Of a stretch of 64,000 nt of DNA, positions 55,003-60,105 are shown piece after piece. The notes beneath the pieces were generated by a model, which saw only the letters and a list, made by a program, of their open reading frames with translations, was not told the origin of the DNA and made no database searches. The position numbers and the translations under genes are program-made. Every line of letters begins with the position of its first letter. The first letter of the stretch is position 1. The DNA comes from Geothrix sp. SG200 (GTDB lineage: Bacteria > Acidobacteriota > Holophagae > Holophagales > Holophagaceae), in assembly GCF_022808935.1 (NCBI RefSeq), contig NZ_JAKZFR010000007.1:124001-188000 (forward strand). The letters run 5' to 3'.

Positions 55003-55056
55003 CGGCCTTCCTTGGTCGGTGGCTATACTGGCTCGAATCTACCCCGGATGCCCAGC

Positions 55057-55779
55057 ATGATTCGAGTCCCCGTGAACGGCCAGCCGACCCTGGCCCTGGC
55101 TCCGGCCCTGGCCCTGGCTCCGGCCCTGGCGCTGGCCCTGGCGCTGGCCGTTCCCCTGCAGGCGGGCGGACTGGAGGGCCCCGTGCGGCTGCACGAGAAG
55201 GGCGGCCGCATCCGCGCCTCCCTGAAGGACTGCGTGGCCATCCTGGAGCCCGTCGAAGCGCCGGTGCCGCCGCCCGGGCCCTCGAGGCCCGTGGCCATCC
55301 GCACCCTGGGCAAGCAGTTCCAGCCGCGGGTCTCCCTGGCCACGCCCGGCACCGAGGTGACCTTCCCCAACCTCGACCACATCCTCCACAACGTGTTCAG
55401 CGTCACCCAGGGCAACCGCTTCGACACGGGCCAGTACCGGCCCGGGGACGCGCCGAAGGTGACAGTGGCCCGGCCAGGCCTCGTGAAGCTCTACTGCAAC
55501 GTCCACCACCAGATGAACGCCTTCCTCTGGGTGGTGACGACGCCCTTCGCCCAGGTGCTGGACGGCCGCGCCGGGGTGGCCTTCGACCGGGTTCCCCCGG
55601 GCACCTACCGGCTGCGCCTCTGGCATCCGGAATCCGGCGAGAAGGCCTGGACCGTGCGGATCGGCGCCGAGGTCACCCATGGCAGCTGGGACCTGGACCT
55701 GTCCCTGCCCGCCCTGGAGCCCCACAAGAACAAGTTCGGGCAGGATTATCCGCCGCTGGCGGACGACCGGGCCTACTGA
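55057..55779 (+). CDS. Secreted cupredoxin-like protein
   Basis: The protein of about 240 residues starts at an ATG (another, 9 bases upstream, is possible). It has a signal peptide made of alanine/leucine repeats. Residues near 90-155 look like a type I copper domain, with a histidine in LDHILHNVFSV and the cluster C-N-V-H-H-Q-M in KLYCNVHHQMNAFLWV. The C-terminal part (DGRAGVAFDRVPPGTYRLRLWHPE) is a beta-sandwich of carboxypeptidase-regulatory type. It could carry electrons or bind copper in the periplasm. No redox partner is nearby. Confidence 0.82.
   Translation: MIRVPVNGQPTLALAPALALAPALALALALAVPLQAGGLEGPVRLHEKGGRIRASLKDCVAILEPVEAPVPPPGPSRPVAIRTLGKQFQPRVSLATPGTEVTFPNLDHILHNVFSVTQGNRFDTGQYRPGDAPKVTVARPGLVKLYCNVHHQMNAFLWVVTTPFAQVLDGRAGVAFDRVPPGTYRLRLWHPESGEKAWTVRIGAEVTHGSWDLDLSLPALEPHKNKFGQDYPPLADDRAY
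55090..55143. repeat. 18-bp tandem repeat in a signal peptide
   Basis: Three 18-base units lie in frame. Two identical units (55090-55107 and 55108-55125) encode LALAPA each, and a changed third unit encodes LALALA. They form most of the hydrophobic core of the cupredoxin signal peptide, so slippage would change its length by six residues at a time. Confidence 0.75.
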
Positions 55780-56119: not shown

Positions 56120-57178
56120 TCAGAACCGCTTCTGCACCACCAGCATCGTCCGGGTGACGGACTCATCCGCACCGTCCGTCCGCTGCCGGAGCACCACCAG
56201 CGAGGCGATCCAGCGGCGGGGCAGCGGCAGGGACAGGTCGGCGCGGGGTCCCCGCACCCGCCGGTAGTACCACCACTCGTCGCCGTTCACGGGATAGAGG
56301 GTGCCCGTGGAGGACAGCCGCTGCCAGGTGAGGGTGAGCTGGGGCCAGTAGGCCCGCTCGCGGCTGCCCAGGGCGACCTGGGCCTCCTCCGACGTCTCGC
56401 CGGTCTCGCGGTTCCGGATGCCGGACCATCCGGCTTCCACGGGCAGGATCGCGTGCCAGGTGCCCGAGGCCCCGGCCGCCTCCACCACCAGCCGCTGGCG
56501 GGCCGCGGGATCATGGCCCGGCAGCCGGCGGAGCCGCTCGTCGCCGGGATCCCAGGCCAGGTCCCAGCGCCCGGCGTGGGCCGTCCAGGACCAGGGCCCG
56601 GTGTCGATCCGGAGGACCAGCTGTCCGGCGGCGAGGTCCACGCGTCCGCCCAGGACGTCCCGGACCCGACCTGCCGCCACGCGGAGACCCGCCTCCTCGA
56701 GCATGCCCCCGGCGCCGCGCAGCCCGACCCGTCCGCCGACGCCCAGGAAGCGGAGGTCCGGATCCCACAGCGCCTGCGGGGCCAGGAGGCCGCTGCCCTG
56801 GAGCCCCAGGCTCAGGGAGCCGAAGGCCCGCTCGGAGACCCACGACGCGATCCCCCGCGCCACGTCCGCCTGGGTTCCGTTAGAAGGCTGCTGATCCCAG
56901 CGGGCCGCGTTCAAGCGGTTGCCATCAGATCCCACGGCGGATCGCGTGCCGGCCTCGAGGCGCAGCGGGCCGGACTCCCAGGCCCAGCGGAGGCGTAGCT
57001 GCCCGTCCAGACGGCGGAAGGCCTCCCCCGGAGCCCCCGGGGCCGAGAGCCGGTCCCCCCGGAGCGTCAGTTCCCAGGCGGGCGCCCAGGGGTTGGCAGC
57101 CTCCGGGGCGAAGGGCGCGGCCTCCTGGCCGGCCAGGGCCACGGCCACCAGGGGGAGGGTCCAGCGGAGAAGCGTCAT
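56120..57178 (-). CDS. Putative outer-membrane beta-barrel protein
   Basis: The 352-residue protein has a signal peptide (LLRWTLPLVAVALAGQEAA). The rest has many alternating strands of about 10-12 residues (LRLRWAWESGPLRLEAGTR, LSLGLQGSGLL, QLVLRIDTGPWSWTAHAGRW, AYWPQLTLTWQRL). It ends in a hydrophobic strand closing with phenylalanine (TRTMLVVQKRF), the usual signal for barrel insertion. No named family is recognised; a porin-like or DUF-type barrel is likely. Confidence 0.7.
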   Translation of the reverse strand: MTLLRWTLPLVAVALAGQEAAPFAPEAANPWAPAWELTLRGDRLSAPGAPGEAFRRLDGQLRLRWAWESGPLRLEAGTRSAVGSDGNRLNAARWDQQPSNGTQADVARGIASWVSERAFGSLSLGLQGSGLLAPQALWDPDLRFLGVGGRVGLRGAGGMLEEAGLRVAAGRVRDVLGGRVDLAAGQLVLRIDTGPWSWTAHAGRWDLAWDPGDERLRRLPGHDPAARQRLVVEAAGASGTWHAILPVEAGWSGIRNRETGETSEEAQVALGSRERAYWPQLTLTWQRLSSTGTLYPVNGDEWWYYRRVRGPRADLSLPLPRRWIASLVVLRQRTDGADESVTRTMLVVQKRF

Positions 57179-57399
57179 CGGCCTCCAGGGGGAGTTCCCG
57201 GCGATGGTAGCCCACCACCGTCACCTCAGGCATCTCTTCCCTGATGTCTTCACCTGTTGTCCTCCCTGTTGTCTGCCCCGCGGAACCGGAGGGTCTCTCA
57301 TCTCCGGACCGGATCTGGAGGGAATCTCCCCACATCCCACGCTGGACCCATTCCACCCTGGGCCCCGGCTCAGGGACCCGCCCGCCAACGGAGGCACCC
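57179..57399. other. Intergenic leader region
   Basis: This stretch lies between the divergent beta-barrel and small-lipoprotein genes. It contains pyrimidine-rich runs near 57230-57300 and a GGAGG just before the ATG at 57400. I see no confident promoter or operator. Confidence 0.4.
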
Positions 57400-57546
57400 A
57401 TGCTCATGCACCCGGCGCACAGGCAGCCGGCCGACCCCACGCGGCGTCCCCTCTCGACCGGCCTCCTCGGCGCGGTCCTGCTTGGCATGGCGCCCTGCGT
57501 CGGGTGCGGCAGCGCGGGCGGCGGCCCATGCGGCTACCGACCTTGA
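57400..57546 (+). CDS. Small cysteine-rich lipoprotein-like protein
   Basis: The 48-residue frame starts at an ATG preceded by GGAGG at a good distance. Residues 18-33 (STGLLGAVLLGMAPC) are hydrophobic, followed by VGCGSAGGGPCGYRP, which fits a lipoprotein signal with lipidation at one of the cysteines. The stop lies 45 bases before the regulator start, so the two may share an mRNA. The gene is short and GC-rich, so chance is not excluded. Confidence 0.5.
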   Translation: MLMHPAHRQPADPTRRPLSTGLLGAVLLGMAPCVGCGSAGGGPCGYRP

Positions 57547-57590
57547 CGGGGGTACCTCCGAACCGGATGCTGGTCGTGACAGGGAGCCGG

Positions 57591-59063
57591 ATGGGCAGCT
57601 GGGACCTCGCCATCGCGCTGGACCGATCCAATGCCGAGCCTCTGTACCTCCAGCTGGTGAAGGCCATTGAGGAGGGCATCCGCCACGGGCGCTTCAAGCC
57701 CGGGGATGCCCTCCCGGGAACCCGGGCCATGGCCGATCTCCTCGGCGTGAACCGGAACACCACGCTGGCCGCCTACCGCGAGCTCGAGGCCGAGGGCTGG
57801 ATCGAGGCCTCCCCCGATCGCGGCACCTTCATCGCCCGGAACCAGCCTGTGGTCCTCGACGCCCCCGCGGGCATCGCCGCCCAGGACTCGGCCTCCTGGA
57901 AGCGGACCACGCCCCGGGAGGGCCCCTTCTTCCAGCCCGGCATGCCCGCGCCCGAGTCCTTCCAGCTCCTGCCGGACACCACGGACCTGCGGCTCACGCC
58001 CACGGAGGCCATCCACCGGGCCTACGGCCGCGTGCTGCGGCTGCATCCGGAGCGCCTGCTCCAGCCGGGCTGGGATCCGCGCGGCCTGCTGGACCTGCGG
58101 AACTCGCTCTGCAAGATGCTGCGCGACCTGCGCGGCCTCTCGGTGGAGGCGGGGAACCTCCTGCTCACCCGCGGCCTGATGAGCACCCTCAACCTGGTGT
58201 CGCGGGTGCTCTTCGGGCCCGGGGACGCGGTGGCCGTGGAGAACCCCGGGCAGTTCCGCGTGGCCGAGGCCTTCCGGGCCGCCGGCGCCCGGCTCTTCGC
58301 CGTCCCCGTGGACGCCCACGGCCTGGACGTGGAGGCCCTCGAGCACCTCCTGCGCCGGGAGCCCATCCGCCTCCTCTACCTCACCACGGCGCCCCAGCAG
58401 CCCACCCAGGTGAGCCTGGATCCGGCCCGGCGCCAGCGGCTGCTCCAGCTCTCGGAGGCCCACGGCTTCCGCATCCTGGAAGGCGACCCGGCCCTGGGCT
58501 TCCACCGGGAGCGCAATCCGCGCCTGCCCCTGGCCAGCGAGGATCCCAAGGGCCGCGTGCTCTACTTCAGCAGCTTCGAGCAGATCCTCGCGCCGGGCAT
58601 GCAGGTGGGCTTCCTGGCGGGCGAGGCCGGCCTCATCAAGACGCTGGCCCAGCAGCGCCAGCTGGTGGACTGGCCCGGCAATCTCGTGCAGGAGGCCACC
58701 ATCGAGGAGACCCTGCGGGACGGCGAGATCGTGCGGCACCTGCGGCGCGTGCGGAAGCTCACGGACGAGCGGCGGGAGACCATGGTGGACCGCCTGCTGC
58801 TCCACCTCCACCCCGCCATCTCCGTGAAGAACCCGCGGGAGGGCCTCTCGCTGTGGGTCCGCGTGGCCGAGGGCGTGCCCCTCGAGGCCTGGACCGAGCG
58901 CTGCCTCGCCCACGGCGTGGTGGTCTACCCGGGGAGCCTGTACGACCTCCACCACCAGCCCGTGCCCTACCTGAGCCTGGGCTTCGCCGCCCACGACCTG
59001 GACGAGCAGAACGAGGCCTGCCGCCGCATGGCCCTGGCCCTGGCCGAGGTCAGAGGCAGCTGA
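57591..59063 (+). CDS. MocR-type GntR regulator with degenerate aminotransferase domain
   Basis: I use the ATG with GGGAG upstream, giving 490 residues; ATGs at 57567 and 57528 are alternatives. The N-terminal GntR winged helix reads GRFKPGDALPGTRAMADLLGVNRNTTLAAYRELEAEGW. The rest is a class I aminotransferase-like domain. In active MocR proteins the PLP lysine lies in a Y-x-G-S-F-S-K motif. Here the matching text is YFSSFEQIL, with Gln331 in place of lysine. The DDYDSEFR-type motif is also changed (EGDPALGFHRE). The domain may therefore bind a ligand without PLP Schiff-base chemistry. It is followed 16 bp later by rsmH. Confidence 0.9.
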   Translation: MGSWDLAIALDRSNAEPLYLQLVKAIEEGIRHGRFKPGDALPGTRAMADLLGVNRNTTLAAYRELEAEGWIEASPDRGTFIARNQPVVLDAPAGIAAQDSASWKRTTPREGPFFQPGMPAPESFQLLPDTTDLRLTPTEAIHRAYGRVLRLHPERLLQPGWDPRGLLDLRNSLCKMLRDLRGLSVEAGNLLLTRGLMSTLNLVSRVLFGPGDAVAVENPGQFRVAEAFRAAGARLFAVPVDAHGLDVEALEHLLRREPIRLLYLTTAPQQPTQVSLDPARRQRLLQLSEAHGFRILEGDPALGFHRERNPRLPLASEDPKGRVLYFSSFEQILAPGMQVGFLAGEAGLIKTLAQQRQLVDWPGNLVQEATIEETLRDGEIVRHLRRVRKLTDERRETMVDRLLLHLHPAISVKNPREGLSLWVRVAEGVPLEAWTERCLAHGVVVYPGSLYDLHHQPVPYLSLGFAAHDLDEQNEACRRMALALAEVRGS

Positions 59064-59079
59064 CGGCTACCATGGCTGC

Positions 59080-60105
59080 ATGAACGACCAGGATCAGCGA
59101 CCCCCGCGCCGCCCCCGCTACAAGGGCACCCACCCCCGGCGCTTCGAGGAGAAGTACAAGGAGCTGGCCCCGGAGCGCTATGCCGAGGAGCAGGCCAAGG
59201 TAGCGGCCCGGGGGCACACGCCCGCCGGCACCCACCGGTCGATCATGGTGGACGAGATTCTCGAGGCGCTGGCGCCCAAGCCGGGTGAGGTCGCCCTGGA
59301 CGCCACCCTGGGCTACGGCGGCCATGCTCGGGAGCTCCTGACGCGGCTCCAGCCCGGCGGGCGCCTCGTGGGACTGGACGTGGATCCCCTCGAGCTGCCC
59401 CGCACCGAGGCGCGGCTGCGGGCCCTGGGCTTCGACGATACCGCGCTGATCGTGCGCCGCACCAACTTCGCCAGCCTCGCCAAGGTGGCGGCGGAGCTCG
59501 GTCCCTTCGACCTGGCGCTGGCGGACCTGGGCGTGTCCTCCATGCAGATCGACAACCCGGCCCGCGGGTTCACCTGGAAGGCGGAGGGGCCCCTGGACCT
59601 GCGCCTCAACCCCCAGAAGGGCCGTCCCGCCTCGGACCTGCTGTCCGCGCTCGATGCGGCCGCCCTGGCGGAGCTGCTGGCGGAGAACGCCGACGAGCCC
59701 CATGCAGACGCCCTCGCGCAGGCCATCGCAGGCCTCCGGATCGGCACCACGCGGGAGCTGGCGGGCCACGTGCGCGCCGCCCTGCCCGCGCTGGACGACG
59801 ACGAGCTCAAGAAGGTCCTCCAGCGCACCTTCCAGGCCCTGCGCATCGCCGTGAACGACGAGTTCGGCGTCCTGGACCGCTTCCTGGCCCAGCTGCCCGG
59901 CGCCTTGAAACCCGGCGGCCGCGTGGCCATCCTCACCTTCCACTCCGGCGAGGACCGCCGCGTGAAGAAGGCCTTTCAGCAGGGCCTGCGGGAGGGCCTC
60001 TACGCGGAAGTCGCGCCCGAGCCCCGCCGCGCGTCACCGGAGGAGCGCCGTGCCAATCCGCGTTCCACCAGCGCCAAGCTCCGCTGGGCCGTGCGGGCGT
60101 CCTGA
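59080..60105 (+). CDS. rsmH: 16S rRNA (cytosine-1402-N4)-methyltransferase RsmH
   Basis: The 341-residue protein has the RsmH features: ALDATLGYGGHARELL (SAM motif I), ADLGVSSMQIDNPARGF, GPLDLRLNP, RTFQALRIAVNDE, ILTFHSGEDRRVKKAF and the C-terminal NPRSTSAKLRWAVR. It methylates C1402 in the ribosomal P site. An extra basic N-terminal segment of about 50 residues precedes the usual start near THRSIMVDEIL. In most bacteria rsmH opens the dcw cell-division cluster; here no mra, fts or mur gene follows. Confidence 0.94.
   Translation: MNDQDQRPPRRPRYKGTHPRRFEEKYKELAPERYAEEQAKVAARGHTPAGTHRSIMVDEILEALAPKPGEVALDATLGYGGHARELLTRLQPGGRLVGLDVDPLELPRTEARLRALGFDDTALIVRRTNFASLAKVAAELGPFDLALADLGVSSMQIDNPARGFTWKAEGPLDLRLNPQKGRPASDLLSALDAAALAELLAENADEPHADALAQAIAGLRIGTTRELAGHVRAALPALDDDELKKVLQRTFQALRIAVNDEFGVLDRFLAQLPGALKPGGRVAILTFHSGEDRRVKKAFQQGLREGLYAEVAPEPRRASPEERRANPRSTSAKLRWAVRAS

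Follow-up and report, generated by a model that had tools for sequence, protein, structure and literature searches.

MocR proteins are the classic example of enzymes that have become PLP-dependent sensors, and a member of this group without the Schiff-base lysine raises the question of what such a protein can still do. The PLP lysine has been reported to be conserved across all MocR clusters (PMC6677901), and in PLP-bound MocR proteins the effector is described as being read by aldimine exchange (PMC8739950); these and the other reports cited below are drawn on from excerpts. The window analyzed here, a stretch of 64,000 nucleotides from Geothrix sp. SG200, encodes a regulator of this kind (Table 1). 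A first-pass annotation of its sequence had proposed that the lysine is replaced by Gln331, and that the protein might sense a different ligand or work as a pure scaffold. In the open-access (PMC) literature, as far as the excerpts reach, we found no description of a natural MocR protein without this lysine, and an earlier mention is possible.

By architecture and descent, the regulator is a MocR protein. Its N-terminus covers the whole PF00392 profile (positions 1-64, 64/64), giving the GntR winged helix-turn-helix (HTH), and the best full-length named model is that of NCBIfam PdxR (NF052282), which matches residues 17-480 with an E-value of 1.1e-82. The regulator misses the equivalog cut-off of that model (278.5 vs 320 bits) and the cut-off of the NCBIfam GabR model NF052285 (127.2 vs 600 bits). 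No Pfam aminotransferase model reached E 0.1 against it; the C-terminal aminotransferase-like domain was recognized from the NCBIfam full-length matches, from phmmer matches to PLP aminotransferases, and from the fold of an AlphaFold monomer model (pLDDT 79.8, pTM 0.70), the alignment for which included nine viral-contig MocR relatives and three relatives from Clostridia MAGs. An earlier model (pLDDT 56.6), built on a shallow alignment of 27 sequences that were mostly 82-99% identical, was set aside. The C-domain of the model matches that of GabR with Z 41.5 (rmsd 2.2 over 358 residues) and PdxR with Z 41.1 (rmsd 2.1 over 357), and archaeal aminotransferases match it slightly better than either (Z 44). 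Because the model matches GabR, PdxR and the archaeal enzymes, the aminotransferase fold appears to be kept. The closest named genomes are those of Geothrix fuzhouensis, G. terrae and G. paludis (98-99% identity). MocR regulators, full-length or partial, were also found on contigs that IMG/VR classes as viral (L157-L165); a viral-contig scan with query A2 gave no match.

Table 1. Features of the regulator locus (coordinates within the window).
Feature	Position	Strand	Basis or remark
MocR-architecture regulator without PLP lysine, 490 aa	57591..59063	+	open ORF
Winged HTH (GntR), residues 18-81	57642..57833	+	Pfam PF00392, 3.6e-15
Fold-type-I aminotransferase-like domain, residues 126-490	57966..59060	+	structural match in AlphaFold model, Z 41-44
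Gly298, in place of PLP ring-nitrogen Asp (Asp279 of GabR)	58482..58484	+	27/27 orthologues
Glu330, clade-specific invariant (Ser311 of GabR, by offset)	58578..58580	+	27/27 orthologues
Gln331 codon, Schiff-base position (Lys312 of GabR)	58581..58583	+	Gln in 26/27, Pro in 1/27 orthologues
Gln338, in place of phosphate-binding Arg (Arg319 of GabR, by offset)	58602..58604	+	27/27 orthologues
Predicted operator, direct repeat ACCGGAGGG..ACCGGATCTGG, 23-bp period	57285..57318	+	spacer alignment and pattern scans
Second CCGGAT half-site pair, 24-bp spacing, at regulator start codon	57561..57595	+	also in near relatives L092 and L093
TIGR03118 lipoprotein gene remnant	57400..57546	+	many relatives have it intact between barrel gene and regulator
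Divergent outer-membrane-barrel-like gene, 352 aa	56120..57178	-	label by eye; linked at 23/23 named loci
Cupredoxin-like secreted protein gene, 243 aa from this start	55048..55779	+	label by eye; linked at 23/23 named loci
HAMP and Ser/Thr kinase gene, 711 aa	52867..55002	-	linked at 22/23 named loci; contig ends in the other
rsmH, 16 bp downstream of regulator	59080..60105	+	PF01795, 6.6e-67

The replacement of the Schiff-base lysine by Gln331 was confirmed, as phmmer alignments to PLP aminotransferases are ungapped across the motif ('VIYLGTFSKILAPGFRIG' vs 'VLYFSSFEQILAPGMQVG', with Lys opposite Gln331). The orthologue clade comprises 27 sequences from three genera (25 from genus genomes and two, L117 and L118, from sister genera); a lysine aligned at this position was looked for and found in 0/27, and the loss is shared by 27/27 with the sequence otherwise conserved, the kind of support for which the annotation had hoped. 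The one orthologue with Pro at position 331 is L118. The further claim that the loop holds no other lysine also stands for the strand and loop Y325-G340: the nearest lysines, K320 (His in the orthologue consensus) and K350 (19 residues beyond Gln331 and invariant in the clade), do not occupy the Schiff-base position. Two other motifs had been described as changed, and they are, TPxHQxPxG reading TAPQQPTQ and EDDYDSEF, of the DDYDSEFR-like motif, having become EGDPALGF.

Where the annotation fell short was in the extent of the loss, as the residues indicate that more than the lysine is gone. The contacts corresponding to GabR Asp279, Tyr281, Arg319, the phosphate-loop Ser/Gln and Arg430 are also replaced in the window regulator. 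The equivalents of Arg319, Ser311, Ser309 and the phosphate loop were placed by motif offset, and we take the Arg and Ser/Gln at these aligned positions to be phosphate-site residues. The phosphate-loop GSQ is changed to GLM in 26/27 orthologues and to GPM in the remaining one, the Arg430 equivalent is Ser or Cys across all 27, and the stacking Tyr is gone or variable in this Q-type clade. GabR numbering for Lys312, Asp279, Tyr281, Phe250, Tyr205 and Arg430 follows PMC6677901. On this residue pattern, covalent PLP sensing through an internal or external aldimine can be ruled out, and the regulator is, judged by the sequence features tested, not a PLP-dependent MocR protein.

The gene has nevertheless been maintained by purifying selection. 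In pairwise comparisons of the 25 genus orthologues (all 300 pairs), dN/dS had a median of 0.132 for the HTH, 0.215 for the linker and 0.135 for the aminotransferase part; with values of about 0.13 in both domains, the regulator is not decaying, and the lysine loss, being common to 27 sequences under such low dN/dS, is not due to chance or sequencing error. Identity among the 27 Lys-less orthologues ranges from 66 to 100%, and 211/490 positions are invariant. The ring side of the pocket has, however, been relaxed. The six positions that face the ring or effector by comparison with GabR (221, 270, 273, 298, 300 and 462) have a mean entropy of 1.13 bits in the Q clade, against mean column entropies of 0.45 for the whole domain and 0.18 for a set of seven positions on the phosphate side; of six-position sets drawn at random, 99.3% were less variable. 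For the canonical Lys-bearing clade, with 16 rows, these six positions average 0.09 vs 0.65 for the domain, a comparison that rests on our own choice of pocket positions and on clades of different depth (mean identity 0.81 in the Q clade and 0.74 in the canonical one), although the difference is a large one. The phosphate-cup side, in contrast, is fixed in a new state in the clade (E330, Q331, Q338 and M197). We read this pattern as that of a PLP/effector cleft that may have been abandoned, with the phosphate cup filled by new structure; alternatively, the variable ring side may reflect a ligand that is not the same in every species. As this side is unusually variable, a scaffold, or a signal sensed elsewhere, is favored over a new shared ligand, which in the same cleft would predict the opposite, that is, low ring-side entropy. 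Of the two fates that the first-pass annotation had left unranked, the entropy therefore leans to the scaffold, or to the sensing elsewhere that it did not name.

The lysine loss seems to be a branch-wide event in Holophagaceae, a moderately supported conclusion that had not been foreseen. Our pocket table holds 130 homologues, 34 from outside the family and 96 from inside. Among the 34, which are the best matches to the regulator from Acidobacteriota genomes and not a survey of all MocR proteins, Lys is present in 34/34, Asp279 in 33 (Glu in one) and Arg319 in 34/34. Inside the family, the Schiff-base residue is K in 49, Q in 26, R in 18, P in two and H in one. For 69 of these proteins, a maximum-likelihood tree was built with the 13 pocket columns removed. 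In it, the 30 rows without the lysine (R 17, Q 10, P 2, H 1) all fall to the same side of a branch that has support of 81/84 and is present in 81% of 200 bootstrap trees, and the Q clade was supported at 100/100. The tree is unrooted, and one lysine loss is the simplest count that it moderately supports; an earlier quick tree (67 rows, other pocket columns kept) needed two changes. Further Lys-less paralogues of the family, with Arg, His or Pro, are L055, L059, L062, L064-L068, L072, L073, L119, L122, L125-L127 and L129-L131. In the R-type proteins L068, L125-L127, L129 and L130, Asp279 and Tyr281 are kept and position 319 is Arg or Lys. A large Geothrix group (L027-L029, L044-L054 and L123) has kept the lysine with Asp279 changed to Asn, Leu, Val or Ala and the Tyr to Gln; its members L028 and L050 have lost both Asp279 and Tyr281.

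Around the regulator, the divergent barrel-like gene reached the cut-off of no Pfam or NCBIfam family, and the cupredoxin-like gene had no Pfam match at cut-off. The TIGR03118 remnant consists of only both ends of a gene that is intact in relatives, for example L091:4808-5950, and no other TIGR03118 copy was found in the same genome (G000) at E 1e-60. As a co-regulated partner, rsmH was considered and set aside; it is linked in the five nearest named relatives only, so the linkage is probably not functional. Next after rsmH comes an M28-like peptidase gene on the minus strand (label by eye), and not the cell-division genes.

When the intergenic region that separates the divergent barrel gene from the regulator (or from a TIGR03118 gene preceding it) was aligned, a candidate operator emerged, a 34-bp site with the consensus CCGGAkG-n16-CCGGATCTGG. 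At 24/27 clade loci, it is conserved in the promoter region of the regulator with no more than two mismatches and an unvarying 23-bp period; these loci include those of the two sister genera, in which it separates the regulator from a divergent lipoprotein gene. The loci L006, L015 and L023 have no operator at the regulator, and their genomes have one at a Rieske gene. Exact matches to CCGGAKG-N16-CCGGATCTGG were found in 28/41 genus genomes, and the reversed control pattern had 0 exact matches in the same 41. The regulator (E <= 1e-150) is present in 27/41, and the exact operator co-occurs with it in 27/27 genomes vs 1/14 without it (Fisher 7.9e-10, with kinship ignored); the exact operator of the regulator-free genome G015 lies at G015:C16:38653-38685 (L198). 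In 16 further genomes scanned at up to one mismatch, the sister-genus genomes G160 and G192 had one and three exact sites, the family genomes without a close orthologue G143, G215, G316 and G324 had none, and one-mismatch sites appeared without a close orthologue once each in G072 and G293 and twice in G308; the reversed control scored in 4/16. A site upstream of other MocR paralogues was also tried, and the 3/64 loci that had one at up to two mismatches were read as chance. Neither a sigma-70-like promoter nor a terminator was found within 57150-57620. Two-box direct repeats are reported to be a large class of MocR motifs, with the TGG/TGT group the usual one and with box distances of whole helix turns (PMC5320631); the predicted site agrees with the rule of direct or inverted repeats spaced by whole helix turns, and we infer that the window regulator is its binder.

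A recognizable operator with a predicted regulon had likewise not been foreseen. The operator lies upstream of a Rieske-domain TAT-type lipoprotein gene (PF00355, 1e-9; TAT and lipobox labels by eye), which has a DUF5777 barrel gene (1e-20) directly after it and a divergent gene for a DUF2231 membrane protein (2.1e-12). This Rieske gene is present in 25/27 genomes with the regulator vs 1/14 without, and an upstream operator at up to two mismatches was found for 23/25, the L212 and L214 genes being near or cut by a contig end; of the weaker Rieske homologues L227-L230, 0/4 had one. In g18, a sister genus, the divergent gene that faces the regulator across the operator is the Rieske gene itself. 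The operator also precedes a lipoprotein gene with three CHRD domains (1.6e-85), which was found in 10 genomes, only those with the regulator, with the operator upstream in 10/10. For the TIGR03118 gene (15 genomes, only those with the regulator; operator upstream in 15/15), the sites are those of the regulator locus, so the counts are not independent. In relatives, a small c-type cytochrome gene lies just 3' of the regulator (PF13442, 1.2e-8), with sites of one to four mismatches. In G036, a CHRD lipoprotein gene (L237, G036:C37:12730-13956) occupies the TIGR03118 place just before the regulator, so that two unrelated lipoproteins have been swapped behind the same operator, and at L194 (G003:C90) the operator also stands before another lipoprotein-like gene (c. 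419 aa). A genome-wide scan of G000 at three mismatches gave 159 matches vs 103 for the reversed control and was therefore too noisy, and only sites with 0-1 mismatch were used; further one-mismatch sites are C7:21691 and C9:60155, the latter within the CHRD gene.

Considering these results together, we have proposed a plausible model, held with moderate confidence, in which the window regulator is a working, dimeric, direct-repeat-binding relative of MocR that no longer uses PLP and whose aminotransferase domain serves mainly as a dimerization body. It probably works without vitamin B6, because the pocket is lost yet the DNA target and a small set of surface genes appear to be kept. The regulator would be fixed in an apo-like, direct-repeat-binding form, and the winged HTHs of a head-to-tail dimer would bind CCGGAkG-n16-CCGGATCTGG before its own locus, reading two boxes 23 bp apart, with the spacing between the two HTHs set by the aminotransferase domain. 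The same dimer would bind before a small number of genes whose products are lipoproteins, secreted or of the outer membrane (Rieske, TIGR03118 and CHRD), and, in relatives, a c-type cytochrome gene. That EnuR K302H, unable to bind PLP, represses constitutively (PMC8739950) speaks for such a model. Any signal would enter by another route, through the protein level, a site elsewhere or a partner. The dimer geometry, the sign of regulation and the absence of a small-molecule effector are what we infer from this pattern. Several observations count against the model: the site in G015 without a regulator, the absence of a site at the regulator in L006, L015 and L023, and the finding that MpaR K314A lost its activating function, from which lysine loss can simply inactivate a MocR protein (PMC10790758, in excerpt). 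The 36 clade-specific invariant positions, some of them round the phosphate cup, could moreover form a different ligand site.

This last point leads to the alternative that the pocket has been repurposed, with a different, non-covalent effector held by E330, Q331, Q338, M197, S198 and T199 and coupled to DNA binding as in GabR. The invariance of E330, Q338, G298 and M197 in 27/27 sequences over three genera, with these residues rare in Lys-bearing homologues, and the 36 clade-specific positions would fit such a site, but few positions of the domain vary as much as those on the ring/effector side, even though operator and targets stay the same, and position 331 is Pro in L118; we consider this unlikely, if still a serious contender. 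Non-covalent binding of PLP or a related B6 vitamer is very improbable for the Q clade, in which the ring-nitrogen Asp, the phosphate Arg, the phosphate-loop Ser/Gln and the stacking Tyr are gone or variable, even though the fold is intact in the model; it is conceivable for the R-type sister branches, since Asp279, Tyr281 and Arg319 are kept there. The loss of all known cofactor contacts would fit a decaying pseudogene of a GabR-like regulator, an explanation to which the dN/dS of about 0.13 in both domains, the frames open in 25/25 genus genomes and the conserved operator leave almost no probability.

The remaining alternatives concern the operator and the signal. The operator may belong to another transcription factor with the regulator merely one of its targets, as co-occurrence cannot tell a regulator from a co-inherited target, the link between the two comes from comparative genomics, and G015 carries a site and no regulator. 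Against this, the site tracks the regulator over three genera while the neighbors vary, the gene listings for the Rieske cluster and the CHRD cluster include no recognizable regulator except a GGDEF-like protein (by eye), and such direct repeats fit the MocR literature as excerpted (PMC5320631); this explanation appears rather unlikely. It is also conceivable, but distinctly improbable, that PLP has been replaced as the input by a dithiol/redox change at C438 and C477 or by the neighboring membrane Ser/Thr kinase. Both residues are Cys in 27/27, C477 being Val or Leu in all 20 other aligned Lys-less homologues, some of the predicted targets are redox proteins (Rieske, cytochrome c), and the HAMP-kinase gene is linked at 22/23 named loci. 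However, two invariant Cys are unremarkable because 211/490 positions are invariant in the clade, and in the sister genera the kinase gene does not adjoin the regulator and only weak kinase matches are found there. C438, C477 and the linked HAMP-kinase gene are thus leads for a new signal input, and no more than leads.

A clade that lacks the lysine naturally and under selection, and whose operator and regulon can be read, separates the cofactor chemistry of the domain from its dimer architecture, and makes it testable whether PLP is needed for MocR allostery at all. The sister branches (Lys kept and Asp279 lost; Lys changed to Arg with the rest kept; all lost) look like differing extents to which one cofactor site has been dismantled. 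Tentatively, and more as a conjecture than as an expectation, a whole lineage of MocR regulators in Holophagaceae may have abandoned PLP, with one ancestral Lys loss leading to the Q, R, P and H types; in the Q type, the cofactor site would have been wiped out and the fold would have become a DNA-spacing dimer body, possibly with a redox or kinase signal and with a regulon of envelope lipoproteins.

Among known systems, GabR of Bacillus subtilis (MocR/GabR subfamily of GntR) has the same combination of winged HTH and fold-type-I aminotransferase domain, and it is reported to bind direct repeats (PMC5320631), the arrangement also predicted for the operator of the window regulator. Unlike GabR, the window regulator has no equivalents of Lys312, Asp279, Tyr281 and Arg430, and its predicted targets are surface lipoproteins, whereas that of GabR is gabT. 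PdxR (NF052282; B. clausii structures 7pq9 and 7zla) is similarly close in fold, the values given above for PdxR referring to 7pq9, and the preference of apo-PdxR for direct repeats (PMC5320631, in excerpt) can be likened to the direct-repeat operator proposed here; in contrast to PdxR, the window regulator has no PLP lysine and no PLP-synthesis gene among its predicted targets. In the same genome, about 15 kb away, the canonical Lys-bearing paralogue L037 (G000:C8:198083-199525; 43% identity) differs from it in having intact PLP pocket motifs (GSQ, DDYD, SK, APGLR and LRLGF). The Lys-less Holophagaceae paralogues L055, L064, L119, L122, L125-L127 and L129-L131 share its branch of the tree, but many of the R type keep Asp279 and Arg319 and could hold a non-covalent PLP-like ligand. 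The engineered variants EnuR K302H, in which PLP binding is impossible and which is a constitutive repressor (PMC8739950), and MpaR K314A, which lost reporter activation (PMC10790758), are likewise MocR proteins without the PLP lysine, the one locked and the other disabled according to the excerpts of these reports. Both are single changes made by design, whereas the loss in the window regulator is natural and old, and nearly all PLP contacts have gone with the lysine.
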